The notes beneath the pieces are model-generated. The model saw only the letters and a list, made by a program, of their open reading frames with translations. It was not told the origin of the DNA and made no database searches. Source: Gemmatimonadetes bacterium bin94 (GTDB taxonomy: Bacteria > Gemmatimonadota > Gemmatimonadetes > Longimicrobiales > Gaopeijiaceae). From it: a stretch of 49,431 nucleotides of DNA. How positions within the stretch are numbered: the first letter of the stretch is position 1; each line of letters begins with the position of its first letter. This document shows, one piece after another, positions 7,440 through 49,036 of the stretch. The stretch is taken from NCBI GenBank assembly GCA_002238865.1, contig MPNE01000030.1:1-49431 (forward strand). Direction: 5' to 3'. Position numbers and translations under genes: made by a program.

Positions 7440-8095
7440 GGTTCAGCCTCAGTCTCTGTGGCGCACGGAAGGCATGGAGGAGGAATAGTTCCGTTTCCAG
7501 TGGCGCTCCTCGGTGGGGCTCCAAATCGGAAGGCACTTCCCCATTCATCGTACAGGTTCATCGGTGCCTGCGCGACAAAGCACCAAGCGAATGGGGACGA
7601 GTCCGTCACGCGCTCCAGCGCGGGAGGGCGAAGACTGGCTTTTTTCCGCTAACCGGCTCAAGCCAGCCGACTCCCCGTTTTAAAACGAGGGTGGGGAGGG
7701 GGGGGGCGAGGACTGTCTGGTGCCCGATACCGGTCTCAAGCCAGCCGACTCCGTGTTGAACACGGAGGCTGGCAAGGGGGTGGCTGCGCCCCCCTTAGAC
7801 CCCCGGCATTTGGCGGCGGCCGCCGGTGAAGCTGCCGCGAGGAAGACGCTGGCGGTGACGCTTCGCAGAAGGTGCGCCGTCATGGCGGCTCAGCCGCGTC
7901 ACCCTGGCGGGGCAAACCCGCCCGGCGAGAGAGGGCGACCGCGCTAGCCGTCGCCGTCTGCGGCGGCCGACCGCCTTCCGGGATCCACCCGCTCCAGATG
8001 ACCGCTTTGTGGAGCGCAACCGACTCGACTATCCTTCCGGGCGGACGCGGATTCGCGTCCGCGGCACCGAAGCGCCCAGAAAGAGGGCTGACACG
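7440..8095. other. Gene-free stretch with tandem repeat copies
   Basis: No convincing gene on either strand. It contains a degenerate repeat block at about 7656-7710 (AAGCCAGCCGACTCC plus a G-run) followed by the well-preserved copy at 7738-7808. The rest is GC-rich with no coding signature. Confidence 0.5.
7738..7808 (+). repeat. Palindromic 3'-end repeat, copy 2
   Basis: Best-preserved copy. GCCAGCC pairs with GGCTGGC around the inner palindrome CCGTGTTGAACACGG; then AAGGGGG pairs with CCCCCTT across TGGCTGCGC; then the tail AGACCCCCGGCA. An identical entry motif, AAGCCAGCCGACTCC, occurs about 80 bases earlier as a partial copy. Confidence 0.8.
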
Positions 8096-8644
8096 ATGGG
8101 CATGCGGATCACACGTACCCACACCGTCGCAGCCGCCCTTCTACTGGCAGGATGCGCGACTTCCGGCCCGAAGCCCGGTGCCTACGAGGACATCTTGGCG
8201 ATCGGCGCAACCTACCCTGCCGGGAAGTTGCCGATCACGCGGATCAACCGGCTGTTCGGTCGTGACCCCGACGCGACCATAGAGGTTGTGGTAGGTCACC
8301 GTGAGACGCGGACCGAGGAAGTCACCCACGAGTCTGTTCGGCTCACCTATCCCGAGGACCACAGATGCCGTTTGAATTTCAGTGACGCGCCCGCGCGGTT
8401 GAACGAGTTCATGGAGTGCGTAGCAAGATCGCAGGACGCCATCTTCGGTGTCATCGTCAGCGAAGTGGTGTCCGACGACATCACCCTCCACACGATATGG
8501 GGGTTCCATGTACAGCCCCGCCATGGGGGGCAGGGCCATGCGGCCGTCATGGCGATCGCCGGAGCGTATCCCGCTGCGCCACCGCAAGGCCCGTACGGGG
8601 CGCAAACCCAAGACCGGCGAGCCTGTCGAGGTTCCGCCCCGTGA
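8096..8644 (+). CDS. Lipoprotein of unknown function
   Basis: 182 residues from ATG 8096. MRITRTHTVAAALLLAGC is a clear lipoprotein signal. The body (ATIEVVVGHRETRTEEVTHE, then RLTYPEDHRCRLNF, NEFMECVARSQDAIFGVIVS and DDITLHTIWGFHV) is mixed alpha/beta with two cysteines. The arginine/proline-rich last 35 residues look less protein-like and may follow a lost stop. The 385 bases between it and the next gene hold nothing I recognise. Family unknown. Confidence 0.6.
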   Translation: MGMRITRTHTVAAALLLAGCATSGPKPGAYEDILAIGATYPAGKLPITRINRLFGRDPDATIEVVVGHRETRTEEVTHESVRLTYPEDHRCRLNFSDAPARLNEFMECVARSQDAIFGVIVSEVVSDDITLHTIWGFHVQPRHGGQGHAAVMAIAGAYPAAPPQGPYGAQTQDRRACRGSAP

Positions 8645-9030
8645 AGTGCCTGTCTTCGAGCCTTCGAGGCACCTTCGCAGCCGGGTGGCCGGGAGCTTAC
8701 GCGCCCTGTAACGGGGGAGAGCCGTTGGATGCCATTTGGCAAGCCGTAGCCGGACCGTGGAAACCGGACGGCGGGGCGAGACCGGATGCCCCGCTCGGCC
8801 AGAGGCGCCCCTCAAGTTATCATAGTGAAGCGGAGGGGTCTGGCCACCCTTCCGACGAGGAGAAAGGCGTCGCGGTTTACGAGAATGACTCCATTACCGC
8901 AGTGCTACTCTCCGTGGAGCCACCAGATCGCATTGAGATCGACGAGGCCGCGCGCAATCACCCGGCCCGAGGCACTCTGGCTGGTGTTGGACAGCCACAG
9001 CATCAGCGGCTGGGAAGGGATAGCCGAACC

Positions 9031-9555
9031 ATGAAGACATTGCTTGTCACCGTGCTCTTGGCGGCCCTACTAGCCGCCGCACCCGTGTCCGCACAGCGTA
9101 CGAGCCGTCTTCACCTGGGCGTCACCGTCACGTCGATGCACGGCCACGTATGGGAGAACACGATGGCTGGCGCCTATGGAGGCGTGTCGTTCGATATGCG
9201 CGACTACCTTCGCCTCGGTGTCCTCTACGTCCAGAAAGGACGGGTCTGGGGGGACCGCTTGAACTCGACCGGGGAACGCGTGCACTCGATCGAGGTGCCC
9301 GTGCTCTACAAGCACACGATCGCCAAGAACACTCACCTTCTGGTGGGCGCGGCACCCAGCTACGACTACTATCTCGACATTGGCGAGGTGATCGGCCTGG
9401 CCACACGAGCGGAAGACTACCCCTTCGGTGTAGAGGTGGCGTACGTCCATGGCCTGGTGCGCGATACCGGCTTCACGCACGGCAGTGAACCCGGACATCG
9501 AGTGCTCAGGATCGGCGTTGAGATCCCGCTGAGGGCCGGAGAGCGAGCACGATGA
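9031..9555 (+). CDS. Outer-membrane beta-barrel protein
   Basis: 174 residues. ATG 9031 has AAGGGA about 9 bases upstream and starts MKTLLVTVLLAALLAAAPVS followed by AQ, a Sec signal with a standard cleavage site. Amphipathic strands follow: RLHLGVTVTSMHG, GAYGGVSFDMRDYLRLGVLY, HSIEVPVLYKHTI, HLLVGAAPSYDYYLD, PFGVEVAYVHGLV and a final VLRIGVEIPLRAG. This fits the small porin-like barrel family also seen at 3.3-3.9 kb. Its stop overlaps the start of the next barrel gene by four bases (ATGA), so the two are co-translated. Confidence 0.75.
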   Translation: MKTLLVTVLLAALLAAAPVSAQRTSRLHLGVTVTSMHGHVWENTMAGAYGGVSFDMRDYLRLGVLYVQKGRVWGDRLNSTGERVHSIEVPVLYKHTIAKNTHLLVGAAPSYDYYLDIGEVIGLATRAEDYPFGVEVAYVHGLVRDTGFTHGSEPGHRVLRIGVEIPLRAGERAR

Positions 9556-10061
9556 GAGCCATCCCGATCCTTTTCATGGCGGTGCTCGCCACCTTGCCGG
9601 CCTCGGCTCAGGAAGTCGGCTGGTACGCAGGCCCCACCTTAGGGTGGTTCAACACCCGCTTCGGATCACGACTCGGCCTCAACGCCGGCGTGTCGTTCCA
9701 GCGGTTCGATGAGCACCCCAACCTCCGGGTCGACCTGCGCTACGTTCAAAGGGGAGGCGGTTGTTGCCCGATCCACTCCCTGCAAGCGCCCGTGCTCTAC
9801 ACGACCATGCTCACTGCGACCGGCTACGTTTTCGTGGGTCCGGCGCTGGCGATCGGCTACGCCTATGACCAGGAACGCATCGCAGACCTGAGCGCGGTGG
9901 GGGGGTTCGGCTTGGAGTTGTACCGCACCGAGACCAAGGTGATCGGTTGCGAAGCCGCGTACAGCGTCAGCCTTCCACTGTACCACCTGAGCTACTACGG
10001 CTTCGAGACCGTCGATGACCCCCTGCAGGGGTTGAGCCTCAACTTCATTCTTCGGTTATGA
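9552..10061 (+). CDS. Outer-membrane beta-barrel protein
   Basis: 169 residues starting MRAIPILFMAVLATLPASAQ, a Sec signal. Strand pattern: VGWYAGPTLGWFNTRFG, LGLNAGVSFQRFD, LRVDLRYVQRGGG, LQAPVLYTTML, YVFVGPALAIGYAYD, VGGFGLELYR, IGCEAAYSVSLPLY, ending in LSLNFILRL with a terminal hydrophobic residue as expected for BAM substrates. The core RVDLRYVQRGG and LQAPVLYTTM resemble LGVLYVQKGR and IEVPVLYKHT in the upstream gene, so the two are probably an old tandem duplication. Translationally coupled to it through an ATGA overlap. Confidence 0.75.
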   Translation: MRAIPILFMAVLATLPASAQEVGWYAGPTLGWFNTRFGSRLGLNAGVSFQRFDEHPNLRVDLRYVQRGGGCCPIHSLQAPVLYTTMLTATGYVFVGPALAIGYAYDQERIADLSAVGGFGLELYRTETKVIGCEAAYSVSLPLYHLSYYGFETVDDPLQGLSLNFILRL

Positions 10062-10185
10062 CAGGACACGCCGCAGCCCCGTTGTTTCCCGGGCTGCCCC
10101 CTCACGGAGCTGCGGCGAAAGCCATTCGAGGTCGCCGCCCGCTCCATCGGCCTTGGTCCGGCGGGCCACGACGGTGCAGCACGCC

Positions 10186-10250
10186 GGTCGAGCCGCCGTC
10201 GAGACGGCGTTGCAGCCGAGGGGATGCTGTGCTCCCCTTCGAACCCCTGG
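10186..10250 (+). repeat. Palindromic 3'-end repeat, copy 3
   Basis: GCCGCCGTCGAGACGGCG palindrome, then GCAGCCGAGGGG paired with CCCCTTC across ATGCTGTGCT, then GAACCCCTGG. It lies about 125 bases after the barrel gene pair and shows the same three-part layout with a different palindrome sequence. Confidence 0.65.
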
Positions 10251-10303
10251 TCGGTCCTCACTCCGTGGATGACGCTTGAACTCCGACTAGCGGCTACGGG
10301 GGC

Positions 10304-11491
10304 ATGAGCCGCTATCTTCTCGTCGTGGTTCCACACTCACTCTGCGACCGGCGAAGGAGAACACGACCCATCCGCACCGCCTTCTTTTCGCGCCCTGCCC
10401 GCAATGCGTTCGGAGCCCGCGCGGCTCTCAACGCGACGATGGTCCTGGCCATGATGGGATGCGGTGTGGACAGAGTGCCCTCGACCCCGGTCAATCTCTT
10501 CGATGAAGCGGCGGGGACGGTGGTCACGAGACGCTTGGCTTTCGATACGCTGTGGGTGTACGGAGGGGCGGGCGATACGATCATGCTCAACGCCGACCGC
10601 GTGGCGGCGTTTCCGGACGGTGACGCTGCTGTCCTTGATATGTTTGGTCGGCGGGTTCACAGGGTGGGTGTCGGCGGCGTCGCCTGGTCGTGGGGAACCA
10701 GGGGTGAAGGGCCGGGAGAAATCGACCATGTGAGGGACTTGGACGTGAATGCCGAGGGAGAAGTCGTGCTTGCCGATTCCCGCAACGGCAGGCTGCACTG
10801 GCTGGCGGGGGACGGAAGCTGGCTCCGAGAGGTCGGGCTGCCGGAGGGCTCGATCAACGTGGATGCGGTCGCGGCGCTGGGGGACGGTCACTACATACTC
10901 TCCTCGCTGATGTACGGCACCGCTCTCGCGACCCTTGAGTCTACGCCACCAGGTACGATCGCGGCCAACCGGTGGGTGCGGGTGTCCGCAGAGGGCGAAA
11001 TCGAGGGGCTCGTACCCTTCCCTTGGGACGGCTTCCGCTCAATGTCCTTTTTTCAGACGGTTGGCAATATCGCTGGTGCCCGATCACTGTCCGCGAGCGG
11101 TGGCCGGCGGTGGGTATTCGGGTTTGGCTTGGGCAACGGCTTCTTCGTCTTCAACGACAGTGTGGCCGAGGCGTACCCCTACGTGCGCCATGCCGACTTC
11201 CCGGAGGTTGAAGCGGGAGGCTTGGGGGGCGGCAGGGACGGGTTCCGGGTCAGCTATCGCGAAGGCCGTCCGGACCGCGTGGCCCGTGACGTGGCGATTC
11301 GAGGTGACACCGTGTATGTGCTTGCGGGCAACCACTGGGAAATCGATCGCTACGAGTCAACTACCGGCCAATACCTGGATTCGGTGCTGCTACCCGTGCC
11401 GTTGTCCCGGTTTGCGCTGGCCCGCGATGCGCTGGTCGGCATCGTTGCCGGGGGGATGTACCCGCAGGTCATCGCGCTGCGAGCCAAGTAG
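10304..11491 (+). CDS. Six-bladed beta-propeller protein
   Basis: 395 residues from ATG 10304. The hydrophobic MVLAMMGC with lipobox-like Cys begins at residue 46 (ATG 10439), so the true start may lie further in; the upstream part is arginine-rich and without clear ribosome site. The propeller signature is intact in WGTRGEGPGEIDHVRDLDVN, followed by blade strands GEVVLADSRNGRLHWLAGDG, VDAVAALGDGHYILSSLMYG, AVAEAYPYVRHAD-like and AIRGDTVYVLAGNHWEIDRY. Same family as the other three propellers in the window. It stands alone, with a reverse-oriented palindromic repeat about 70 bases after its TAG stop. Confidence 0.75.
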   Translation: MSRYLLVVVPHSLCDRRRRTRPIRTAFFSRPARNAFGARAALNATMVLAMMGCGVDRVPSTPVNLFDEAAGTVVTRRLAFDTLWVYGGAGDTIMLNADRVAAFPDGDAAVLDMFGRRVHRVGVGGVAWSWGTRGEGPGEIDHVRDLDVNAEGEVVLADSRNGRLHWLAGDGSWLREVGLPEGSINVDAVAALGDGHYILSSLMYGTALATLESTPPGTIAANRWVRVSAEGEIEGLVPFPWDGFRSMSFFQTVGNIAGARSLSASGGRRWVFGFGLGNGFFVFNDSVAEAYPYVRHADFPEVEAGGLGGGRDGFRVSYREGRPDRVARDVAIRGDTVYVLAGNHWEIDRYESTTGQYLDSVLLPVPLSRFALARDALVGIVAGGMYPQVIALRAK

Positions 11492-11988
11492 CTGCCCGGC
11501 TCTTGGCATCGGGCTGCCAGTGTCGCACGACGGCACTCGCCGGACTGCGAGCGCTTTTGGGGGGATCGAAGGGGGAGGCGCGCGCCCCCTCGCCAGCCGC
11601 AACGTTGAACGTTGCGTGTGCTGGCTTGTCCACAGAAACAGTGGTTCAAGCCAGCCCGGCGGAGCCGCCGTCCCCTCCGCTCCGGGCATCGCCCGGAACA
11701 CCCTTGGCGACGACGGCGGCGCTCCCTCCCGCGAGACCGCATGCCACCCTACCCCCCTACCCCTCGGGAACCCGAGATCTTCGCTCTCTGGCGATCCTGG
11801 GGCCCGTAGGATACCCGAAATGCCCCTAGAAACCGTCTGCGAGGCCGTGGGCGGATGCTGTGGCACGTTCATGTCAGGTCTCGATGCCCGCTCGTCGGTC
11901 CGCGAGGTACTTTGCCCAGTCGTTGGATTAGCCGCCGCCCGCCGGTGCCCCGCACCGGACCGCATCCGACCGAAGCACTACCACGCGG
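11492..11988. other. Gene-free stretch with reverse repeat
   Basis: Contains the reverse-oriented repeat copy at 11560-11628 and a CAAGCCAGCCCGGCGGAG relic next to it. Beyond that no convincing coding sequence; a plus-strand frame from about 11820 is arginine/proline-rich and looks like a shadow. Confidence 0.45.
11560..11628 (-). repeat. Palindromic 3'-end repeat, copy 4 (reverse)
   Basis: Read on the minus strand: GCAACGTTCAACGTTGC palindrome, GGCTGGCGAGGGGGC, a C-run partner ending in CTTCGATCCCCCC. It has the same orientation of parts as copies 1-3 but faces the end of the propeller gene. Confidence 0.75.
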
Positions 11989-12369
11989 GTGAGCCCTGTG
12001 ACAGATTCCGATGTCCTGAGGGAGGTTCCGTTGCCGCACGGATCACGAGCCCAGAGGCTGGATTACCAGCACGAATACCGCAAGCGCCCCGAGGTGCAGG
12101 CCCGCGACCGGGAGTACCGTCGCGAGTACCGGCGGCGGCCGGATGTGATCGCGCGGCGCAAGGCGCGCCAAAACGACTACCAGCGCAGGTACCGCGGCAG
12201 GCCGGAGGTCGCCGAGCGGACGCTGCACCGCCGCCGCGACGAATCCAGAAGGCACGAAAAGACCTACTGGCCGCGCTTCCGTCTGGCCTGCCGGCTGGCC
12301 AAGGAGTGGGGTGACCGACACTTGACTTCAAAGCATTTGGCCGCCGTGGGGCTGAAAAGCTCCTGCTGA
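11989..12369 (+). CDS. Basic repeat protein of unknown function
   Basis: About 126 residues, strongly basic, starting at GTG 11989. The core is a tandem repeat: YQHEYRKRPEVQARDREY, YRREYRRRPDVIARRKARQN, DYQRRYRGRPEVAERTL, roughly one YxxxYRxRPEVxAR unit per 19-20 residues. Such arginine/tyrosine repeats usually coat nucleic acid. The end, FRLACRLAKEWGDRHLTSKH, is helical. It converges on the P4-type integrase remnant and may be mobile-element cargo. Similar R-R-P-E-V repeat proteins occur beside phage and island integrases, but I cannot assign a function. Confidence 0.5.
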   Translation: MSPVTDSDVLREVPLPHGSRAQRLDYQHEYRKRPEVQARDREYRREYRRRPDVIARRKARQNDYQRRYRGRPEVAERTLHRRRDESRRHEKTYWPRFRLACRLAKEWGDRHLTSKHLAAVGLKSSC

Positions 12370-12402
12370 ACTGTTCCACCGTAACGCTGCCAAGCACCGA
12401 CG

Positions 12403-13463
12403 CTAGCGCGCGAGATACTCCGCCCACTCATCCATGAGCCGCCGCCGACGCTCGAACAGGTCGGATCGCATGTAGGCGGCCTCCACCTTGTTCTTCACGA
12501 TGTGTGCCAGCGCCGCCTCGACGACCTCCCTTGGATGATCCGTTTCCTCGGCCGCCCAGTCCCGGAACGACGACCGGAACCCGTGCGGAACCGCCGCGAT
12601 CCCCAGCCTCTCAAGCATCTGCCGAACCTGCTTCTCGGCAAGCTCCCGTCCGTGCCCTCTCGCGAAGACGATGGAACTCTCGTCGTTCAGCCTCCGCGCC
12701 TCGTCGAGGATCTCCAGCGCCCGCCCGCACAGCGGCACACGGTGCTTCCGATTCGCCTTCATGCGCTTGGCCGGGACCGTCCACACGCTCTCCCGGTGGT
12801 CCATCTCCGGCCACACGGCCCACCGCACCTCGCCCCACCGAGCCGCCGTCAGGACTAGGAACTCGAAGGCCAGCTTGACAACGGGCAGGGAATCGGACGC
12901 CCGCACCTTCTCAAGCGCCGCCGCGACCTCGCGGTGCGGCAGCGCCTTCATGTGCCGCACCACGTCGTTCTGAGGACCGAGCACCCGCCCGACGCGGTCG
13001 CAAGGGTTGTCTGGCCGCAGTTCCATCGCCACGGCCCACTCCAGTACGGCGCGCATCCGTCGGCGCAATGTCCGGGCGGTGGGGGGCTTCACATGCCAGA
13101 TCGGGGCGAGCACTTCGTAGATGTCCGCCCCCGTGACCTCGGTGACCGGCATCTTGCCGATGCGCCCGAACGCGAAGCGCTCCAAGCTGCTCAGCCACGC
13201 CCTCGGGTACTTCGGATTGCGCCAACCGGCCTTCTGCTGCTCGACGACCTTGGCCGCCGCTTCCGCAAAGGTCGGGACTCCCTGCGCCGGGCGCTTGTCC
13301 GCAAGCGGGTCCCCGCCCTCGCGGGCCAGCTTCCGGTTGGCCCGCGCCTTCTCGCGGGCCTCGGCCAGCGAGACAAGGGCGACGCTGCCGAGTCCGAGCT
13401 CCCGCCGCCGTCCGCGAATGACGAGGCGTTGAATCCAGCTGCGGGCTCCGCTTCGAATGCTCG
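12403..13463 (-). pseudogene. P4-type integrase, N-terminal arm missing
   Basis: The reading frame is open from 13463 (just after an in-frame TGA) to 12403 and reads as an island/prophage integrase: GARSWIQRLVIRGRRRELGL, TFAEAAAKVV, APIWHVKPPTARTLRRRMRA, LTAARWGEVRWAVWPEMD (catalytic Arg), KHRVPL, HGFRSSFRDWA (H-x-x-R) and LAHIVKNKVEAAYMRSDL with the C-terminal Tyr. The first ~40 residues of the arm-binding domain are absent and no ATG or GTG is found before the core; TTG 13185 would delete more. Probably inactive. A shorter fragment of the same gene type lies at 40.7-40.9 kb. Confidence 0.8.
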
Positions 13464-13773
13464 CTGATCACATTGAACGCAGCGGGATCGACACATCGCG
13501 GCGAAGGTGCCAGCCCAATGCTGGAGCACGCCGAAGCCAGCGAGCAGGCAACGGCCACGCCGGGGGTAGCACTGTCGGCAAGTGTCTTCAGACGGTCGAG
13601 AACGTCCATGAAGTCCTTTCGTCTCTCTGGTGGCGCTGGGCCGGGACGCGCGAGGCTAACCGCACGTCTCATTGCGACGGGTCGCCCAAGGCGTCAGAAT
13701 GTGCCATGCCGTTCCACGCAGTGCGATTTGGACACCCTGCTCGGAGTCTCCCCATGACTAAGGTACACAGAGA

Positions 13774-27135: not shown

Positions 27136-27383
27136 GCCCCCAAACTACATCCCCGTAAAGCGGGGCTCCAACTCAGGGGTGATGCGAGCCGAGCACGCCG
27201 GGCATCACGACCGAGCCGCCTCGACTTAATGCCCGTGGGCGGGCAAGCCGTTGGCGGTGCGGATCAAGGTGACGAGGCGGAGCACATGAGGCGCGAATCA
27301 CGGTAGAGTCGAGGGCTGGCGCGCCGACCGTAGGGTCCGGTGGCTATTCCGTCGCTTTCGCTCCGGGCCGCAGACCGGCTCCC
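27136..27383. other. Upstream region of the sensor kinase
   Basis: No gene seen between the kinase start and the intron relic. The kinase promoter should lie here but I find no convincing -35/-10 pair. Confidence 0.3.
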
Positions 27384-28082
27384 GTAGTCACGTTTCCAGC
27401 CCCCGCTCATCGAACCGGACGTGCGAATCTCCCGCATCCGGCTCTCAGTCGGGATCATGCCTTCGCCCACGGAAGGTGTCGTGTCGTCAGCGCAAGGCGC
27501 GTGAGGCCGCATTCCTCCCACAGCCATCGCGGTGGGAAAATCGCACGCATCTTCCTGACTTCACCTTGTGCTTCCGGCAGAACCACTGTCGCAGCCGCAG
27601 GGCCGCGTACGCATCCACAGCGGCGTAGGCCGGACTGATCTGGCCGAGTGTGAAGTAGTTTGCCTAACCGGACAGCATCCGGTTGAGACGCCCTGCCTCT
27701 CGCGGGGTTTCGGTTGCCGCATGCACGGCACCGACGGGGCTTCCCGTGTTTCCACGCATTCCATTTCCACATGTGCCGACGCCACTACCCCGGCGGAAAC
27801 CGACCGGTGTCCCGTGGCTCTCTTCCCGGCCGGTCGGCGGCCTTCCCCTTCGGCCCGCGTGGTCGCTGGGCCTCCTACCGACTTAGCTCGTCTCTTGGCC
27901 GTCTCCACCTGTTTCCGGCTTCGTGCCCGTTTAGGGTATCGCGTATTGTGCGAGGCCCTTCTGCCACAGTGCTTCAGCCCATGTCGTTACGTCCATGCAC
28001 CGCTCTGGCTGCTACCGGCTGGAGCGACAGTTGCCGGGCGGGACTTGCACCCGCTAGGAAGGCGCGCCTTTCCACGGCGCAC
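27384..28082 (-). mobile_element. Group II intron with most of its reverse transcriptase deleted
   Basis: On the minus strand the 5' end GTGCGCCGTGG begins at 28082 and continues through intron domain I-like sequence (GCGGGTGCAAGTCCCGCC). Near the 3' end, 27411-27443 reads GAGCCGGATGCGGGAGATTC followed by GCACGTCCGGTTCG, a textbook domain V hairpin. Just upstream, 27540-27680 encodes the maturase/X-domain tail of an intron-encoded protein (TLGQISPAYAAVDAYAALRL, RQWFCRKHKVKSG), preceded by an in-frame TAG. Only ~700 bp remain, so the reverse-transcriptase domains are deleted. It could move only if supplied in trans. Its 5' end abuts the att-like repeat at 28.09 kb. Confidence 0.85.
27411..27443 (-). 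ncRNA. Group II intron domain V
   Basis: The 34-nt catalytic hairpin: GAGCCGGATGCG and CGCACGTCCGGTTC pair around a GGAGATT loop. The AGC-type catalytic triad at the stem base is present as GAGCC. This is the most diagnostic part of the relic. Confidence 0.85.
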
Positions 28083-28090
28083 GCAAAGAA

Positions 28091-28225
28091 TCACGTAACG
28101 TCAATCGGGACTGCACGATCTGCCATTCCTGTCGTTGTACGGGATTCCGCTGTACCGTGTCGCGAAAGCGGGAAAACCGGGTGTGAATGGCGGGATTCCC
28201 GCGCCCGCGTCCTCCTCGCCGCCGG
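28091..28225 (+). repeat. ~125-bp att-like repeat, copy C
   Basis: Starts TCACGTAACGTCAATC, carries GGACTGCACGATCTGC at 28108-28123, then GTCGCGAAAGCGGGAAAACC and GAATGGCGGGATTCCCGCGC. Compared with copies A and D it lacks about ten bases near its left end, next to the group II intron boundary. Confidence 0.75.
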
Positions 28226-36968: not shown

Positions 36969-37307
36969 CTATAGGCACTTGCACGATGGGCCGAGGAGCC
37001 CGCATTTGCAGCACGCGGTGTGCCCGTCGTCGCAGTCAACACTGCACCCGAACTTGCCGCAGCTAACACTACATGAACTACTGTTTGGCCCGCCAGCCTC
37101 ACAGGCACTGCTCCCGGCCACTCCGAAAAGGTGAACATAGGCGTCGTCGGACAGTCACTGGTCGGGAAGCTCCAAGTCCCAGCCGACCGTATGGGCGAGT
37201 CCGTATCCGTCAATCGTCCAGGCCGCTGGGCCGGCCCGCAAACTGATCGCGGTCAATAGCAGCAAACACAGCGTCAATCCAGCTTCGGCAGTCCCGAGCC
37301 GCTTCAC
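36969..37307 (-). CDS. Cysteine-rich secreted peptide with an internal TGA
   Basis: GTG 37307 overlaps the propeller stop (GTGA). Residues 1-29 are a signal peptide (AGLTLCLLLLTAISLRAGPA then AW). A TGA interrupts the frame at 37155-37157; the same frame then continues 61 codons to TAG 36969-36971, ending SSCSVSCGKFGCSVDCDDGH then ACCKCGLLGPSCKCL, with ten cysteines. Read as written, the gene makes a 50-residue peptide without the Cys-rich part. The TGA may be a point mutation, a sequencing error or a recoded codon; no convincing SECIS hairpin is seen right after it. The Cys pattern resembles secreted peptides found beside propellers in Bacteroidota (NVEALA-like, by memory and not verified). 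Confidence 0.6.
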
Positions 37308-38527
37308 CGCCGGCCGCCTCTCTCTTCTTCGGCGACGGGAGCAACCACGATCCGCTCGACGTCAAGCGTATCCTGGACGACGCCGACCGCCATGGCTTCG
37401 TCGGCCCAGAAGAGCCTGAACCTCTCTGGAAAGTGGTAGGCTTGTCGTTTCCTTGCGAGTTCGGAGTAGGCGGCCCACCTGCGGGATCCCGGAAAAACCT
37501 GATCCGCTCCGCTCTGCGGTGGCACATAATCCGCCACCCACAACCGGCCGTCCCGACCGACAACGATCGCACCCATGGCGGGAAGAGAATCGGGATATGG
37601 CAGGAGCTCCAGTTCGGCTAGCCTCGCGGCTCGAAGCGGCGTCGGGGGCCTTCGTTCCACCTGACTCCTGCGGATCGTGAGATCGGCCTCTTTTTGTGGA
37701 AGTGAGAGGGCCCTCCTACCTGAATCGAAGCGTACGGATTCGAGCGGCATCCCAGCGGAGCTGACGCGCATCGCTCGGGGAAACCGGGTCGAACCGAAGT
37801 AGACAACGGAATCGTCGGCTGCCGCGAACGCCCGCGGGGAAAACGGAGCCATGCCCCTCGCGAACCTCGAAGAACGATACCGGTACAACATGGCCCCAGC
37901 GGTCTCGCCGATCGCTTGGAATCCACGGCCTTCCGGCGACGTGAGAAAGACCGTTACGAGACGCGAATGCGAGACTCCGGGCTCGTCGTACCGATCGTCT
38001 ACAGCTTCTGCCGTCCATAGCAATCTTCCGTCTCGCAGGGACCCACGAAGGGTCGGGAAGCGCAGATCGACCGGCAGGTCCTCGATTGACACCCACCGGA
38101 CTCGGCCCCCTTCATACGGCCACAGCGAAGCCCGGTACTCCCAGCGGTCGAAAGCCAGAACCGAATCACCTCGGTATTCGAACACCCCGCCCAGCCTCTG
38201 GAACTCGTCCGGTCCATCGCCGATGCCACCCAGGCTCTTGCGCGGGTCTCCATCCATGTTGAAGAACCTGACCGTACCATCGCCCGAATTCCCGATTACC
38301 ACGACTCCGGCTTCCCTGTCTACGAACGCACCAACGATGTCCTGGAAGTCCGTGCCGCCGTCGCCCGACCAGTCGCCCAGAACCAGGAGGGGCCGTGGTG
38401 CGCTGAAGGCTACACTGTCAGGTGGACCCACGGAATCCGGTCGAGCACCCGGGTCTCCGCAGCTGATCGACCACAACGCGAGCAAGATCAAAGGGGAGCG
38501 TCCGATGCGACTTGGAACTGTGTCCAA
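37304..38527 (-). CDS. Six-bladed beta-propeller lipoprotein A (operon with Cys-rich peptide)
   Basis: 407 residues. TTG 38527 is chosen because AAGGAG lies about 9 bases upstream and it yields the signal RSPLILLALWSISC with a lipobox Cys; the longer open frame overlaps the preceding peptide gene. Signature: LGGIGDGPDEFQRLGGVFEY. Blades include YRGDSVLAFDRWEYRASLWP, GSLRDGRLLWTAEAVDDRYD, FAAADDSVVYFGSTRFPRAM and VVGRDGRLWVADYVPPQ. The start is 26 bases after the upstream Cys-rich gene and the stop overlaps the next peptide gene. Probably the acylated, surface-exposed member of a peptide-binding pair. Confidence 0.82.
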   Translation of the reverse strand: MDTVPSRIGRSPLILLALWSISCGDPGARPDSVGPPDSVAFSAPRPLLVLGDWSGDGGTDFQDIVGAFVDREAGVVVIGNSGDGTVRFFNMDGDPRKSLGGIGDGPDEFQRLGGVFEYRGDSVLAFDRWEYRASLWPYEGGRVRWVSIEDLPVDLRFPTLRGSLRDGRLLWTAEAVDDRYDEPGVSHSRLVTVFLTSPEGRGFQAIGETAGAMLYRYRSSRFARGMAPFSPRAFAAADDSVVYFGSTRFPRAMRVSSAGMPLESVRFDSGRRALSLPQKEADLTIRRSQVERRPPTPLRAARLAELELLPYPDSLPAMGAIVVGRDGRLWVADYVPPQSGADQVFPGSRRWAAYSELARKRQAYHFPERFRLFWADEAMAVGVVQDTLDVERIVVAPVAEEERGGRR

Positions 38528-38553
38528 TGTACTGCCGCTCCTTGGTCCGTGGT

Positions 38554-38775
38554 CTACCACGAACAGTTCTCTTCGTAGCAGTCGTCGTAATCGGGGTCGC
38601 ACTTCTCCCGGGCTTCTTCGGTCGAGAGCCCTTCCGCGCAGCTGTCCCACTCGTCAAGACATGCACACTGGCACGCTGGAGGAGTGTCACACACGGCCAT
38701 CGCTTTGCCTGTCGGAAGCAAGACAACGGCAAAGAGCATCAAGTTGAGCCCGCACAGAACCAGTCGTCGTTTCAT
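38554..38775 (-). CDS. Cysteine-rich secreted peptide
   Basis: 73 residues from ATG 38775, AAAGG eight bases upstream. MKRRLVLCGLNLMLFAVVLL PTGKAMA is a standard Sec signal; the mature part of about 46 residues begins VCDTPPACQCACLDEWDSCA and ends DPDYDDCYEENCSW with eight cysteines and many acidic residues. The even cysteine number suggests four disulfides after export. First gene of the peptide-propeller operon. The three GGGAAAACCC boxes lie 90-140 bases upstream. Candidate roles are a secreted signal, toxin or matrix peptide; none can be chosen from sequence alone. Confidence 0.7.
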   Translation of the reverse strand: MKRRLVLCGLNLMLFAVVLLPTGKAMAVCDTPPACQCACLDEWDSCAEGLSTEEAREKCDPDYDDCYEENCSW

Positions 38776-40719: not shown

Positions 40720-40945
40720 CTTTGCCCCGATCTGGCATGTGAAGCCGCCGACCGCCCAGACGTCGTGCCGTCGCATTCGCGCCGTCTTGGAATGCGCCGC
40801 GGCGACGGAACTGCGGACGGACAACCCCTGCCACCGAATCCTCCACCTGCTGGATCCCCAGCACGACGTTGTCCGGCATCATCACGCCCTGCCTCACGGG
40901 AAGTCGCGGCGGCCATCGAGAAGGCGCGGGCGGCAGATCCGGAGG
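40720..40945 (+). pseudogene. Fragment of a P4-type integrase
   Basis: FAPIWHVKPPTAQTSCRRIR, AVLECAAATELRTDNPCHRI and LDPQHDVVRHHHALPH match the middle of the integrase at 12.4-13.5 kb (APIWHVKPPTARTLRRRMRA and on), then shift frame to SREVAAAIEKARAADPE. No catalytic residues remain. The rest of 40480-41066 holds only this and a reverse palindromic repeat. Confidence 0.75.
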
Positions 40946-41030: not shown

Positions 41031-41066
41031 ATGTTTTACATCGCGTCGGCGGATCCGCTGAGGCCC

Positions 41067-41188
41067 AAATCACGGCAGGAGATAACGTAAGTCTAACTGG
41101 GACTGCACGATCTGCCAATCTTGCCGTTGGACTGGACCCTGCTGGACCGTGCCGCGAAAGCGGGAAAACCGGACTCGAATGGCGGGAA
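41067..41188 (+). repeat. ~125-bp att-like repeat, copy D
   Basis: AAATCACGGCAGGAGATAAC, core GGACTGCACGATCTGC at 41100-41115, GTTGGACTGGACC, CCGCGAAAGCGGGAAAACCG (a perfect GAAA-loop hairpin) and GAATGGCGGGAATCACC. Nearest relative of copy A. It ends within a base or two of the stop codon of the large ATPase gene. Confidence 0.75.
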
Positions 41189-44100
41189 TCACCGAACCTC
41201 CGATTCTACGTCTTCTTGCCGAACTATCATATCGGAGTGTCGCGGTTCCCTTTCCGCACACTGCGCCCACATGTCAGCATAGAAGCCGTATCGAAGCTGG
41301 CCGCGATTCCGCGTCCATGGGATGGGAAAGACTCGCGGATTATCCGTCTCCGTGCGATCGACTACATAGAGCCAGTATTCCACGTCGTCCTCTGTGTGCT
41401 GGAGGGCGTCCTCCACCTGGCGCGCGGTAAGAAGCACGCTCGCATCCTCCGCGAAATCCCCCTTGACACCCTTCACTTCGATGCGTCGCTGCCGCCCCGC
41501 CACGGGGTCGTCGCTGAGAACATCGAAGCCCGGTTGACCGGCTGGCATTTCCTTAGCCGGGCGTTTGTGCCGTATCTCGTACTTGACCACGGCAGCGCGC
41601 GCCTTCTTATCGTCCTTCGGTGGAGTACTGGTCTTGGTTGGCTCGACCGCATCCGAGCCCCCCGCACCGGACACCGAGGACGCCCTTCCCTGATTCCTGC
41701 CGATGAGGATCGCGAATTGGTCTGCTGCGGGGCTCGAATCAGGCGCTGTCTTTTTCGATTGGGTGGCCCGACCCTTGGGTGCGACCCTGCGGCTTTGGTC
41801 GTCGGGCGGTTCCCGGCGCGAATCCGGGCCAGTTCCAGTCGTGCCTGCTGGCTCCGGATCAACGGGACCTCTCGGCAGGGGTTCTCCCGTGTCTGTTTCA
41901 GGTCTATCGATCGTTGGCTCCGGTACGGACAACCCTAGGCCGCTGGCGAGCACTTTCAGATTCTCAGAAAACCGTTCATCCTCCTCAAGGTAACCAAGCG
42001 CTGCCGTGAGCCGCGGTATCGAGTTACCTCGCTGTCCCAACTGGAAATGCTCGACGAGTTGCTCAGCCGCTTCCGTACCGAAGGTCGCTGGAGTCCCAGT
42101 GACCATGAGTTCATCATGGACGAGATAGGCGGTGACTTGGTGCCTCTCACCTTCGACCCGCAACTCAAGGTGTAGGCGGCATGTAATCCTGCTCAGGGGT
42201 TGGCGGCCCTCAAGGGTGCCAAGAGCCGCCACAAGTCTCTTTAGATTACCCATCCACGGCGGTCGGGGAAGCTCACGTCCTTCACTTATCTTGATCTTGG
42301 TCGAAAGGCACGCGATCCCAAGTTCGGCCGCAACGAGGCGAATCTGTTCTGGGGCACCTCCGAGGTGTGCGGCTGAGATGGCTACCCGGTTGGCTGTAAG
42401 CAGTTGTCGAATGAAGGGGGATCGGACATCATCGACAACGAGTGAGTCGCTGATCTCATGCCAACGACCCTTGCCATAGAGCCGAGCCTCTTGCTTTGCG
42501 TCGCGCCAGACTCCACGGTCCAGATCGTCGCGCTCCAAGTCTTGAAGGACGTAGCGATACGCGGACGCTATGTGGGCTCGGATCTCATCCACGGACTCCG
42601 GCCTACGTCTCCAGCATTCAGAGAGGTATCCGAGAGCCTGCCGGCCCGTGGTTGTGGTGGGCCACTCGACTTCAATTCGATTCACCGCCGCAGCCAAGCC
42701 CGCCTCGACAGAGGAAAGCGCCACCACCCATCCGCCGAGGTCACTTCGCGTCCCGGGACGACCAGCCTCTTGCACTACACGATCCAACGGGACGCCTCGT
42801 AGCCTCACGGAGCGAAGTGTGGAGGTCAGCTCGACGCGCGTCACGGTGCCCGCCTCGATCTCTGCCAGCGCCTCATCGAGCAAGCCCGCCAGTTCGGCGT
42901 CCGGCAAGTTCGATGAGCCCTGCCTCTCCAGCCGGCGTAGCACGGGAGAGCGGGAGATGTCGGCGCCGAAACGAACCCCTTCCTGCACCAGGCGGTTCAC
43001 TAAGCCGGGGTCAATATCCGCGAGGGGCGCATCTTCGTAGTCGGGGTCGGCGTGGAGCAGCAGGTCTGCGGGCCTCCTGCGTTGGCCATCTTCACAGAGA
43101 ATCCACGGAAGCTGCTCCAGTGCTTTGACCCACAGCGAGCGTCGTTCTCCGTCAGTTGTCTTCGGGCCATGGTAGCTGCTGGTCGCCTTCCGCGTACCCT
43201 TGCGGGCAAGAAGGGTATATTCGCGTGAAAGCCACCTCTGTAGGGCGTCAAGTGGGACGGTTTGAACCTTGAAGGGCAGGTCGTAGTCGAGCATAGTCCA
43301 CCCCGACGCGAGCGCGGCAGGCTTAATCTGGTCCACCTCGATCCCGAGTAGCTTGCCGACGGCCTCCTTGTCGTAGCCGACAGGGACGCGCCGTTCCTTG
43401 AGCGTTGCGTCACCGCGAACCCCCAGTCCTTCGATGAAGCGCACCGCCGCCTGCTGGTCGTCGATGAGAGCGTAGTCCTCCACGAGCGCTGGCACGCTCG
43501 GGAAGAGCCGGCGCCGATCCTGTCCACCCGGCACGAGCGGATCCGCCAGCAATGCTGCGGATGGCTTGTGCGCACCACCTTCGGTCAGGACCAGCGGCAC
43601 GAGGTCTTGGCGGTTCGCACCGCGGGCAACGGCCCAATCCAGGAGTTCGACGAGCGGGAAGGCGTCGCCGTCTCCGGCATCGGTGCAAACCTGCCGAACG
43701 ATGTCTTTCAACCGCTGCTCCCGGTGCCGTTCCTGCAGCCAGGTGACGCCTGGGTGGGAGGTGCGATGTCGATTGACAAGCGCGCGGATTCTCGGTGGCA
43801 GGCGTTGTTCGGCGGCAGGCAAGAAGCCAGCGAGCGCCTCGGCGACCACAGCCCCACTCGGTTCCTTGACGGACGGCGGTTCTTCGTTGAGCCAGCACGT
43901 ATCGTCGGCGGGGAGCCACCCGTCGGCTTCCGTAGGGACGACGGGTGCGTGGTGCCATTTCTGCTCGGAGACGCACGACCAAAGCGCAAAGAGCGCGTCG
44001 GTGTTCCCCTCCACCGCAGACCACCAAGGCGGTAGCGTGACAGTCCACTCTACGGCATCAGGATCGATGTCGAGTCCCCACCCAAGCCAGTTGGCGAACT

Positions 44101-45493
44101 GCACGGCGCGACTCCCCAAGAGACCTTCATCCATCAGGTCGCGGTCAAACAGCAAATCTGGACGCCACGCCGGGCGTTTTCCAAACTCGCTGAGAAACCG
44201 GCCGGGTAGGCGCACGATCTCTTGCGGTGTGGAGAATCGTCTGGTTTCTGGGCGGAGAACCGGAACGATCTTGAGATCCCCGAGCAAACGGATGAAATCG
44301 CACCGTAGGGCACCAAGTACATCGGAGACCTCCCCTTCGAGCCGGGTGGGGTTAGACAGTATCCGGTAACCCCGGCTCATGGCGGATTCCGACTGCTCCT
44401 TCAGCCAAAGAAGTATTTCTCGCACAAGCATCGGGACTTGCTGCACGATTGCTTCCTGCCAAGGATCTCCTCTGATGGCCCGGAGGCTCTGACGTTCCAG
44501 GTTGACCAGCCAGTCCGCCTGCAAATGGAATCCGAAGGGAATGGACACCCGAGTCGGAAGTGTCGCGTAGACCCGACCTTGGGACGGTGGGTTCGGTAAC
44601 CCGTCCTCGTCCAAGGGCACGAGCGCCACGACGCTCCGCTTCGGCCGCTCTGACCCACTGGCCTCTTGGTACGTGAGGTCCTGGCGCGCCTCCAAGAACC
44701 GTCGCATCGCGGCGTCATCCGGGCGATAGCATGACACGAAGAATCGCCACCGCCGAGAGAGCCCATCGGGCGCGCGACGAACTTCGACCACTCCGTCCCG
44801 CACCGAGAGGTCCCAAGTGACATCGTCGATGCACACCTGCTCCAAGCCCCGCAACGCGAGCACGGACAACGGAGTTGGGTCTTCTGGGGACGCTAGGCGC
44901 GCTAGGTCGTCGGCCAAGCGGGCCGCCGGGGCTACGGGACGAGTAAGGTGAAAGGCGGTAGTGTAACCAGCATCGGGATCGAGCCGCTCACGGTCCCAGT
45001 GTGGCTGTAGGGCGTCGAACCAGTCAGAGACCGTGGCGCCGAGCGCCCCGTGGCGCTTTCCGATGTCGAACCTAATGCGCCAGCCGAAACCCGAAATCCG
45101 CGCTGTTCGAAACCGATTGAAGACTGACTTGAATCCAACTCCCATGAACCCGATGGCGTCCTGCCCCTTGGTCGAAGCACCAATCTAAGACAGCCCATCC
45201 ACAGCAGGTTCGTCCAACGCAGCGTCCCCATCATGCTGGAACAACAGCGACCCACCGTTGGTCCTCCAGTAGATTCGTCGAGCACCCGCATCGATTGCGT
45301 TCTGTGACAATTCGTAGACGTAGGCCCACGGGTGCGGGTGTCCGGCAGCGAGCATGGTCGCGACCATCTTGCGTGCAGGTGGGCCAAAGTGCCCGTCGTT
45401 CTCGCGGCGCACCTGCTCGACGAAGGCGCGCCGTTCCCGCTCGCCTACATTCACTGTCACGCCCCGGTCCTTCCCAGACGTTACCTCGCTCAT
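41189..45493 (-). pseudogene. Bergerat-fold ATPase/DUF3883 protein with internal TAG
   Basis: Two collinear open frames join in frame: 45493-45188 (102 residues) and 45184-41189, separated only by TAG at 45185-45187. Together 1,434 codons. N-terminal sacsin-like ATPase: N-box ELSQNAIDAGARRIYW, G1 HDGDA, then STKGQDAIGFMGVGFKSVF across the junction; the stop falls between G1 and the conserved I-G-A-S-T-K. The long middle has no clear motif. C-terminal DUF3883 (NOV_C): GFDVLSD, RIEVKGVKGDF, LTARQVEDALQHTEDDVEYW, LYVVDRTETD, with an E-x-K reminiscent of PD-(D/E)XK nucleases. Such proteins are found near restriction and defence loci. As written, the ATPase is split; other genes here use TAG as a normal stop. 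Confidence 0.85.
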
Positions 45494-46577: not shown

Positions 46578-47737
46578 TCAGGTGCGATCCCTCGGGCGGC
46601 TTTCCAACGCCGTCCGAAGCTGTCCAGCGTCGGCCTGCTGATAGCAACGTAGCACCGTCTGCGGGCTCTTCCATCCGCCAAGCTCACAGAGCACCTTGAG
46701 CGGAAGATCCATCAGGTCCGTCGCGAACTTCCGCCGCAGCGAGTGCCAGCCCCGGCCCGGCTTCGGCTCCAGTCCCGAGAGGGTCTGGGCCTTCTTCCAC
46801 CACAGAAAGGCGGAAACGCGGTTCGCGCACCTCGTGGCATCCCTCGACGAAGGCAGCACCGGGCCGTTCTTCTTCCCCCGGCCCATCCCTCGCGCCTCCT
46901 CCAAGACGGCGAGCGCCTCGGCGGTCAAGGGCGTGATGTGCTCGTACCCAGTCTTCTCGTGCTCCGCGTCCACCGGATGGTCCTGTCCTCGAAGTCGATG
47001 TCGGGCCAGCGGAGTTCACGGATCGCACCGATACGGTGCCCCGTCTCGTGCGCGAGCACAAGCGCGACATGGAACCGCCACCCGACCTGCCGCGACACCT
47101 TCAGCATCGCCCGGTACTCGTCCCCGGTGAGAACGACCCGGTTCGGGTTCTTCTCCCTGGGCTTCCTGAGGCCCTTCAGCGGGTTGGAGTCGAGGAGGAG
47201 CCTCCCCTCCTCGTCCCGGGACCTTGCGGCCCAGTTGAGCACCGTCATCAGGAACGTCAGGTCCCATGCGATGGTGCGGTTGCCGACGGGCTGGCCCGAG
47301 CGTCCGGCCCTGCCCGCTCTCCGTGCTTGGATGAACCGGTCCCAATCGCGCTGCGAGAGCGTTTCGGGCCTCCGGTCCCTGCCGAAGAAGTCGAGGAACA
47401 TTGTCGCCGCGACCCTGTCGCGCCGCCGGGTCCTCTCGCCCTTCGTGGGCGTCACCTCTTCCCCGTAGATTTCAAAAAGCCGTCCCAGCGTGAGCGGCTC
47501 GGGCTCGGCTTCCGCCTTGCCGTTCAGCTCCGGGCTTGCGAACCCTGCGGCGAATTCGTCCGCCTGCCGTTTGGCTCGGGTCCAGTCACGGTGACCCAAG
47601 GACCTCGTGAGCCTGCGCCCGTTCTCCCGCCACTCCATCTGGTACAAGCCGGTTTTCCGGTCGGGAAAGACCCGGACCCGGTTCCGGCCCCATTCGCCGG
47701 CGCCGTAGGAGCGCCGACTTCGTTTCGTGCGTGCCAT
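46578..47737 (-). pseudogene. Tyrosine recombinase, full length but frameshifted
   Basis: Close relative of the integrase at 1.5-2.3 kb, with the N-terminal part intact: start ATG 47737, arm-binding segment (NRVRVFPDRKTGLYQMEWRE), core-binding region, then RDWDRFIQARRAGRAG and catalytic ETGHRIGAIRELRWPDIDF. At about 46975 one base is missing: the frame leaves IRWTRSTRRLG and the adjacent frame resumes AEHEKTGYEHITPLT, WHSLRRKFATDL and LGGWKSPQTVLRCY. Unless this is a sequencing error, no active enzyme is made. A GGACTGCACGATCTGC core lies 20 bases outside its start. Confidence 0.88.
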
Positions 47738-47757: not shown

Positions 47758-47773
47758 GGACTGCACGATCTGC
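47758..47773 (+). repeat. Att-like 16-bp core, copy E
   Basis: Exact GGACTGCACGATCTGC, 21 bases outside the start codon of the frameshifted integrase. The flanks do not match the ~125-bp repeat, so only the core is shared. The 47774-48100 stretch carries no convincing gene. Confidence 0.65.
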
Positions 47774-48100: not shown

Positions 48101-49036
48101 TTGATCGACCATCTGAAGGGTCGCGAGAAGGCGCTGGAGCCGTTCGGCCTGACGGGCCGCCGCGCCGAGTGGGTCGCCTTGGCGAGCCTGCATGGCGGCG
48201 TGTTCAACCGCTCGCAGCTTTCGGCGTGGTTCGGCATGGACCGCTTCAAGACGCTCCGGTTCGTGCAGGCCCTGACGCGGAGAAGGCTCGCCGCCGAGGA
48301 GATGGTCGGAGATCTGAAGGTCTGCCGGATCTGCGCGCGCGGCATCTACCGGGCTCTCGGTGCCGAGGGCGTCCGCACCCGGAGGATCACCTCGACCGAG
48401 GTGGCCATGCGCCGCGTGCTCTCGTTCGACTACGTGATCGAGCATCCGGACCTGCCCTGGCTCCCGACCGAGCAGGAGAAGGTCTCCGCGTTCGAGGCGC
48501 TCGACATGGGACGCTCGCTCATGCCCGTCCGCGTCTACCGGGGCGCCGCAGGGGGTGCGCAGCACTACTTCCCCCGCGGGATGCCCGTGGCGCTGGACTC
48601 GCGCCGCGCCGTGTTCGTCCACGCCGATCCCGGCTACGACACCTCGACCGCGCTCCGTTCGTGGCGGGACCGGCACCAGAAGCTCTGGCAGGCACTGAGG
48701 GACCTGGCCTTGTCGGTCGAGGTCGTCGGGGTCGCGTGCGCCCGGAGACCGCTTGACCGGGCGCGGACGATCCTCGGAAACTGGACCAATACGGAAACGG
48801 CTCCACGTCCCATCCACCCGCCCGGGACCGCCGCTGCGGCCCGGCGCGAGATCACGCGCATCGAGAATGCGATCGTCGGCATGGACGACGCGGGGGTCGA
48901 GGAAATGGGCGGTTTCCAAGCCTGCCTCCACAGGATGGTCGAGCTGGAAGATATGCTCCGATCCATGCGTCCGGCAGGGACGATCGACGGCCATTCGGTG
49001 TGGCGTTCGAGCCGCTTCCGTGGGCGCGGGATTTGA
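48101..49036 (+). CDS. Mobilisation-region protein with winged-helix N-terminus
   Basis: 311 residues from TTG 48101 (GGGGG upstream, weak). Residues ~15-70 look like a winged helix: LTGRRAEWVALASLHGGVFN, RSQLSAWFGMDRFKTLRFVQ. The middle (YVIEHPDLPWLPTEQEKVSA, FEALDMGRSLMPVRVYRGAA, MPVALDSRRAVFVHADPGYD) is globular and the end helical (AAAARREITRIENAIVGMDD). It vaguely resembles replication-relaxation proteins of integrative elements, but I cannot confirm this. A decayed copy lies at 22.1-22.8 kb on the other strand, linked to the same downstream block. Confidence 0.6.
   Translation: MIDHLKGREKALEPFGLTGRRAEWVALASLHGGVFNRSQLSAWFGMDRFKTLRFVQALTRRRLAAEEMVGDLKVCRICARGIYRALGAEGVRTRRITSTEVAMRRVLSFDYVIEHPDLPWLPTEQEKVSAFEALDMGRSLMPVRVYRGAAGGAQHYFPRGMPVALDSRRAVFVHADPGYDTSTALRSWRDRHQKLWQALRDLALSVEVVGVACARRPLDRARTILGNWTNTETAPRPIHPPGTAAAARREITRIENAIVGMDDAGVEEMGGFQACLHRMVELEDMLRSMRPAGTIDGHSVWRSSRFRGRGI

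Follow-up and report, generated by a model that had tools for sequence, protein, structure and literature searches.

The minus strand of a 49,431-nucleotide contig (C5, here called the window) from a draft genome of 4.42 Mb in 83 contigs (97.5% complete) carries a long frame with the look of a defence gene, and a single amber codon interrupts it. The question is whether the stop marks a gene that was recently lost, one that is held silent, a boundary between two genes, an old pseudogene or an error of the assembly. The best reading is a recently inactivated or population-polymorphic allele, and not regulation or recoding. In full, and with a probability of roughly 0.7, we read the locus as an anti-phage gene of the Tiamat (TmtA) kind that acts through a single protein, is carried by a mobile element, was functional until recently and is now disrupted by one nonsense mutation.

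The frame, its stop codon and its domains

The features of the gene are as follows.

41189-45493, minus strand: Tiamat-like gene, 1,434 codons with a single in-frame TAG
45185-45187, minus strand: the in-frame TAG at codon 103, in the ATPase part after the G1 box and ahead of the G2 box
41189-45145, minus strand: the part of the frame that starts at the next Met beyond the TAG, without the N and G1 boxes
45104-45322, minus strand: sacsin N-terminal ATP-binding-like domain (NF047352), residues 58-130, cut by the TAG
41327-41602, minus strand: NOV_C/DUF3883 domain (PF13020), residues 1298-1389, with a PD-(D/E)XK-like E-V-K

The frame is a real gene, since chance would place about 42.5 stops in 1,434 random codons of the same composition, and the other five frames contain 23 to 44. 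A reading made from the letters of the window alone, here the sequence-only reading, had reported this frame with its one amber codon and had placed the codon inside the ATPase core, and both observations are confirmed. The TAG follows 'ELSQNAIDAGA' and 'HDGD', which are the N and G1 boxes, and precedes 'IGFMGVGFKS', the G2 box. The frame continues past the stop, as had also been noted, and the next Met lies 14 codons further on. This Met falls inside the G2 box ('FMGVGFKS'), and therefore reinitiation after the TAG would yield no working ATPase. Wider decay of the region is rejected, as among the neighbours checked only the integrase is really frameshifted; the genes at 37307-38653 and 48101-49036 only seem broken, with the interruptions lying upstream of their likely starts.

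The N-terminal residues 58-130 match NF047352 over the cut-off (E 9.6e-15), and a profile built from the N-terminal ~400 residues and six relatives retrieves sacsin structures at E 5.5e-22 and Hsp90/HtpG at E ~1e-8. At the other end of the protein PF13020 is matched, also over its cut-off (E 4.8e-8), and the D...E-V-K pattern of this part is common to five relatives in the alignment, which bears out the PD-(D/E)XK-like spacing that the sequence-only reading had pointed to. Work on conflict systems (PMC3710099) described DUF3883 as a novel restriction-endonuclease domain of defence operons. A profile search found no relative of the DUF3883 part among solved structures, and the model that AlphaFold built from the sequence alone was meaningless (pLDDT 37).

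Going by family and architecture, the intact product of ~1,430 aa would join an N-terminal sacsin/Hsp90-type ATPase to a C-terminal restriction-endonuclease-like DUF3883 domain. Infection would be sensed and lead to ATP-driven closure of the N-terminal clamp, and this closure may license the C-terminal nuclease against DNA. In the present genome the translated chain would be 102 residues long and break off midway through the ATP site, probably leaving no working ATPase.

Relation to Tiamat and to other sacsin-like proteins

Tiamat (TmtA) is described as a single-gene anti-phage system (Millman et al. 2022, as cited in PMC12926258). Among named defence families TmtA is the best match to the gene, with seven PADLOC models at E-values from 1.5e-31 to 6e-6, and going by these profile matches the gene is a divergent relative of TmtA. 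The Tiamat-like assignment is new and was absent from the sequence-only reading. The 1,434 codons fit the size of the matched models (1,302-1,782 positions), and the gene resembles Tiamat in being a single gene of similar length with an N-terminal sacsin/Hsp90-type (GHKL-type) ATPase and a C-terminal NOV_C/DUF3883 domain. It differs in that a nonsense codon interrupts the ATPase and in that no TmtA model covers its central ~900 residues. Both ends alone align; no model matches the gene end to end, and the top-scoring one covers 126 residues of its 1,563 positions. A second Tiamat encoded in the same genome is matched over its full length, and an alignment of the two proteins gave nothing beyond chance. 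Because the TmtA models align at both ends only, the gene is named 'Tiamat-like' and membership of the family is not assigned.

Bacterial and archaeal proteins that combine a sacsin-like ATPase with DUF3883 (e.g. Halosimplex WP_274326343) have the same ATPase motifs and a variable residue at the TAG column, but they are shorter (~820-1,100 aa), and their N-terminal part is only ~24-40% identical. By profile, the N-terminal domain belongs to the fold family of the sacsin and Hsp90 N-terminal ATPases. Unlike sacsin, the present gene is bacterial and has a nuclease-like C-terminus, and the HEPN or DnaJ part of sacsin was not detected in it. For the Tiamat-like gene, a role in anti-phage defence is suggested by the domains at its two ends, taken with its neighbourhood.

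The sister copy, the age of the stop and the rival explanations

The gene is present in two of the 23 genomes of the genus, with the TAG in one only and the other 21 genomes without the gene, and no further copy was found among ~300 genomes of the phylum. The sister genome of the same genus is Gemmatimonadota MAG RHO1_bin_51, whose isolate name suggests an association with a sponge. The sister copy (contig C51 of G003) is 81% identical in amino acids, has a sense codon at the TAG site and contains no stop and no frameshift over ~1,364 alignable codons; it runs into the end of a short contig, and the comparison ends ~60 codons before the end of the gene. The comparison with sister genomes that the sequence-only reading had proposed thus yielded an open version. 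The alignment of relatives that it had likewise proposed shows sense codons and no stop at this position in seven relatives, with variable residues flanked by well-conserved neighbours. Since the column is variable, the TAG is not a conserved recoding site. A conserved stop is likewise rejected, as the relatives carry varied residues at this codon.

Between the two copies dS is 0.29 and dN 0.10, a ratio of 0.34 that is pairwise and leaves the amino-acid changes unassigned to either branch. A lineage unconstrained since the split would be expected to have gathered ~21 stops; as the gene has one, and no frameshift, the lesion is young. One stop is compatible with an unconstrained share of at most ~22% of the time since the split, by a simple Poisson estimate uncorrected for codon usage. 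The DNA identity between the two genomes is 86% for the gene versus 79% for prfA, which would fit transfer within the genus or strong constraint. A phage origin was considered and rejected, as viral contigs and phage records contained no relative; a plasmid search gave three distant matches.

A real, young nonsense mutation ranks above an artefact, in which the TAG would be a consensus error or a minority base from mixed strains in the metagenome assembly and the gene would be intact in the living population. The artefact is the less likely of the two, at odds that still deserve attention. The gene lies on one contig of a fragmented draft, and the adjoining integrase has a one-base frameshift (the copy most like it, in G021, has its break elsewhere), as might be seen with such errors. 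However, errors of this sort take the form of an indel more often than of a substitution that makes a stop. The remaining ~1,433 codons are uninterrupted, as are the neighbouring ORFs that were examined, where the two apparent breaks lie outside the likely coding parts. The frameshifted integrase might also be taken to point to an old pseudogene in general decay, an alternative already named by the sequence-only reading; the count of one stop against the ~21 expected, with no frameshift in the gene itself, makes this very improbable.

The sequence-only reading had offered a stand-alone defence effector that was either recently inactivated or kept off by its nonsense codon, and the two halves fared differently. 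Recent inactivation fits the TmtA-like matches, the open sister copy and the single stop with no frameshift. For a regulated off-state, the amber codon would be read through at a low level or suppressed under stress, and a toxic defence protein would stay silent until needed. The two open parts are separated by one stop only, and autoimmunity is, in general, a reason for silencing such a gene. But the proposed search for suppressor tRNA genes found no CTA anticodon (amber suppressor) among the 43 tRNA genes found in the assembly, RF1 (prfA) is present, and a stop confined to one of the two carriers, at a variable column and absent from the sister and from distant relatives, does not look like a conserved switch. 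We give this half very little credence, and recoding by a suppressor tRNA is rejected on the same tRNA and RF1 evidence. It is equally improbable that the locus is two functional genes whose products, an N-terminal piece of 102 aa and a piece of 1,318 aa from the internal ATG, cooperate. Both pieces are open, but the cut crosses the ATP site between boxes that are needed in one fold, the internal start within the G2 box has no convincing ribosome-binding site, and the sister has a single gene.

If the favoured reading of a recently disrupted Tiamat-like gene is right, the locus catches a costly immune gene as a natural population loses or silences it and a related species keeps it, and it would be evidence for single-gene defences coming and going on mobile DNA. 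Gene loss itself is ordinary biology, and the repeat and recombinase beside the gene, which may belong to a moving element, are the more interesting lead.

The adjoining repeat, its core and the integrase

The features beside the gene are as follows.

41049-41190, plus strand: 142-bp dispersed repeat ('B' site), abutting the stop codon of the gene, with the core GGACTGCACGATCTGC at 41100-41115
47758-47773, plus strand: the same 16-bp core GGACTGCACGATCTGC ('A' site), beside the integrase start and in direct orientation to the core at 41100
46578-47737, minus strand: tyrosine recombinase (phrog_1-type integrase), with one frameshift near 46968-46970

Because so few genomes of the genus carry the gene and an integrase and a repeat adjoin it, the gene is probably mobile. 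Relatives of the integrase occur in 10-20+ copies per genus genome, and the 142-bp repeat is dispersed through all genus genomes examined. Exact copies of GGACTGCACGATCTGC number 43 in the present genome, 39 in G003 and 11 in G021, and the reversed control gave none. Of the 43, about 18 belong to the integrase-side class and most others to the 142-bp class, where the core is flanked by 8-bp palindromic arms that have changes on both sides in several copies.

A locus labelled lon, after weak PADLOC matches to Lon-like proteases, has an insertion that opens with the 142-bp repeat in three genomes, each time beside a CTGCCAAAATGGCAG-like palindrome (CTGCCAATATGGCAG in G021). Most other genomes compared have uninterrupted host synteny there, without the insertion. 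Since the lon insertions start with the repeat and most genomes lack them, we take the repeat to mark where an inserted element ends on one side; its end cargo would be the Tiamat-like gene, which may have moved with it. The excess of palindromes to the left of the repeat is modest overall. An integron reading of the repeat, for which GTCTAAC/GTTGGAC was tempting, is rejected: the RYYYAAC/GTTRRRY-like stretches, candidates for the R'/R'' boxes of attC, are unconserved among the copies, and NCBIfam matches of the integrase fragments include no IntI model.

Defence-type genes adjoin other copies of the repeat.

7624-13536 of locus L103 (contig C63 of the present genome, G000), minus strand: second Tiamat, open and full-length, 1,971 codons (PDLC03971, E 2.7e-197)
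L110 (contig C2 of the present genome): HmaC-like ATPase, on the inner side of a repeat copy
L127 (G001): ZorD-like SNF2-Mrr protein, on the inner side of a repeat copy
L109, L208, L186 and L102: Upx-, type II restriction endonuclease-, PDC-M48B- and PD-Lambda-5-like genes, respectively, on the inner side of repeat copies

The second Tiamat has its 3' end ~50 bp from a 142-bp repeat, with an integrase match on the far side. With Lon-like and generic ATPase matches excluded from the count, defence-type matches amount to 8/24 on the cargo side of the repeat versus 1/20 on the opposite side (one-sided Fisher p 0.02). Leaving out the cases noticed before the comparison gives 4/19 versus 1/20 (p 0.15), and the enrichment is a lead, not a result.

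It is possible, though we would wager against it, that an undescribed family of mobile elements, spread through the genus, carries the Tiamat-like gene as cargo. Such a family would have a ~140-bp repeat end with short palindromic arms and a 16-bp core, the same core beside the start of a multi-copy tyrosine recombinase, insertion next to small palindromes and one large accessory gene that ends at the repeat, and it would be a somewhat integron-like system of single-gene defence cassettes without IntI or attC. Its cargo would often be defence genes (Tiamat, Hma-, ZorD-, Upx- and PD-Lambda-5-like genes and restriction enzymes) or LRR/Ig-type genes. A family of this kind could explain how single large defence genes spread in Gemmatimonadota, and would serve as a simple DNA tag in the search for more defence genes.

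Large LRR and bacterial Ig-like/cadherin-like proteins adjoin repeat copies at L180, L181 and L189; proteins of this kind are reported for sponge symbionts. Repeat or core sites in the window lie at 41049-41190, 2315-2456, 28090-28208, 15435 and 47758. The repeat-class cores at 2366, 15435, 28108 and 41100 have one orientation and are 12.7-13.1 kb apart, perhaps by chance. A truncated second integrase copy at 1496-2317, 75% identical, runs directly into the repeat at 2315-2456. The window also contains a second dispersed repeat of ~215 bp with many copies in the genus, at 12892-13107 and at 40724-40938, the latter ~110 bp to the left of the 142-bp repeat, and a group II intron match (Rfam RF00029, 44.3 bits) at 27303-27446 on the minus strand.
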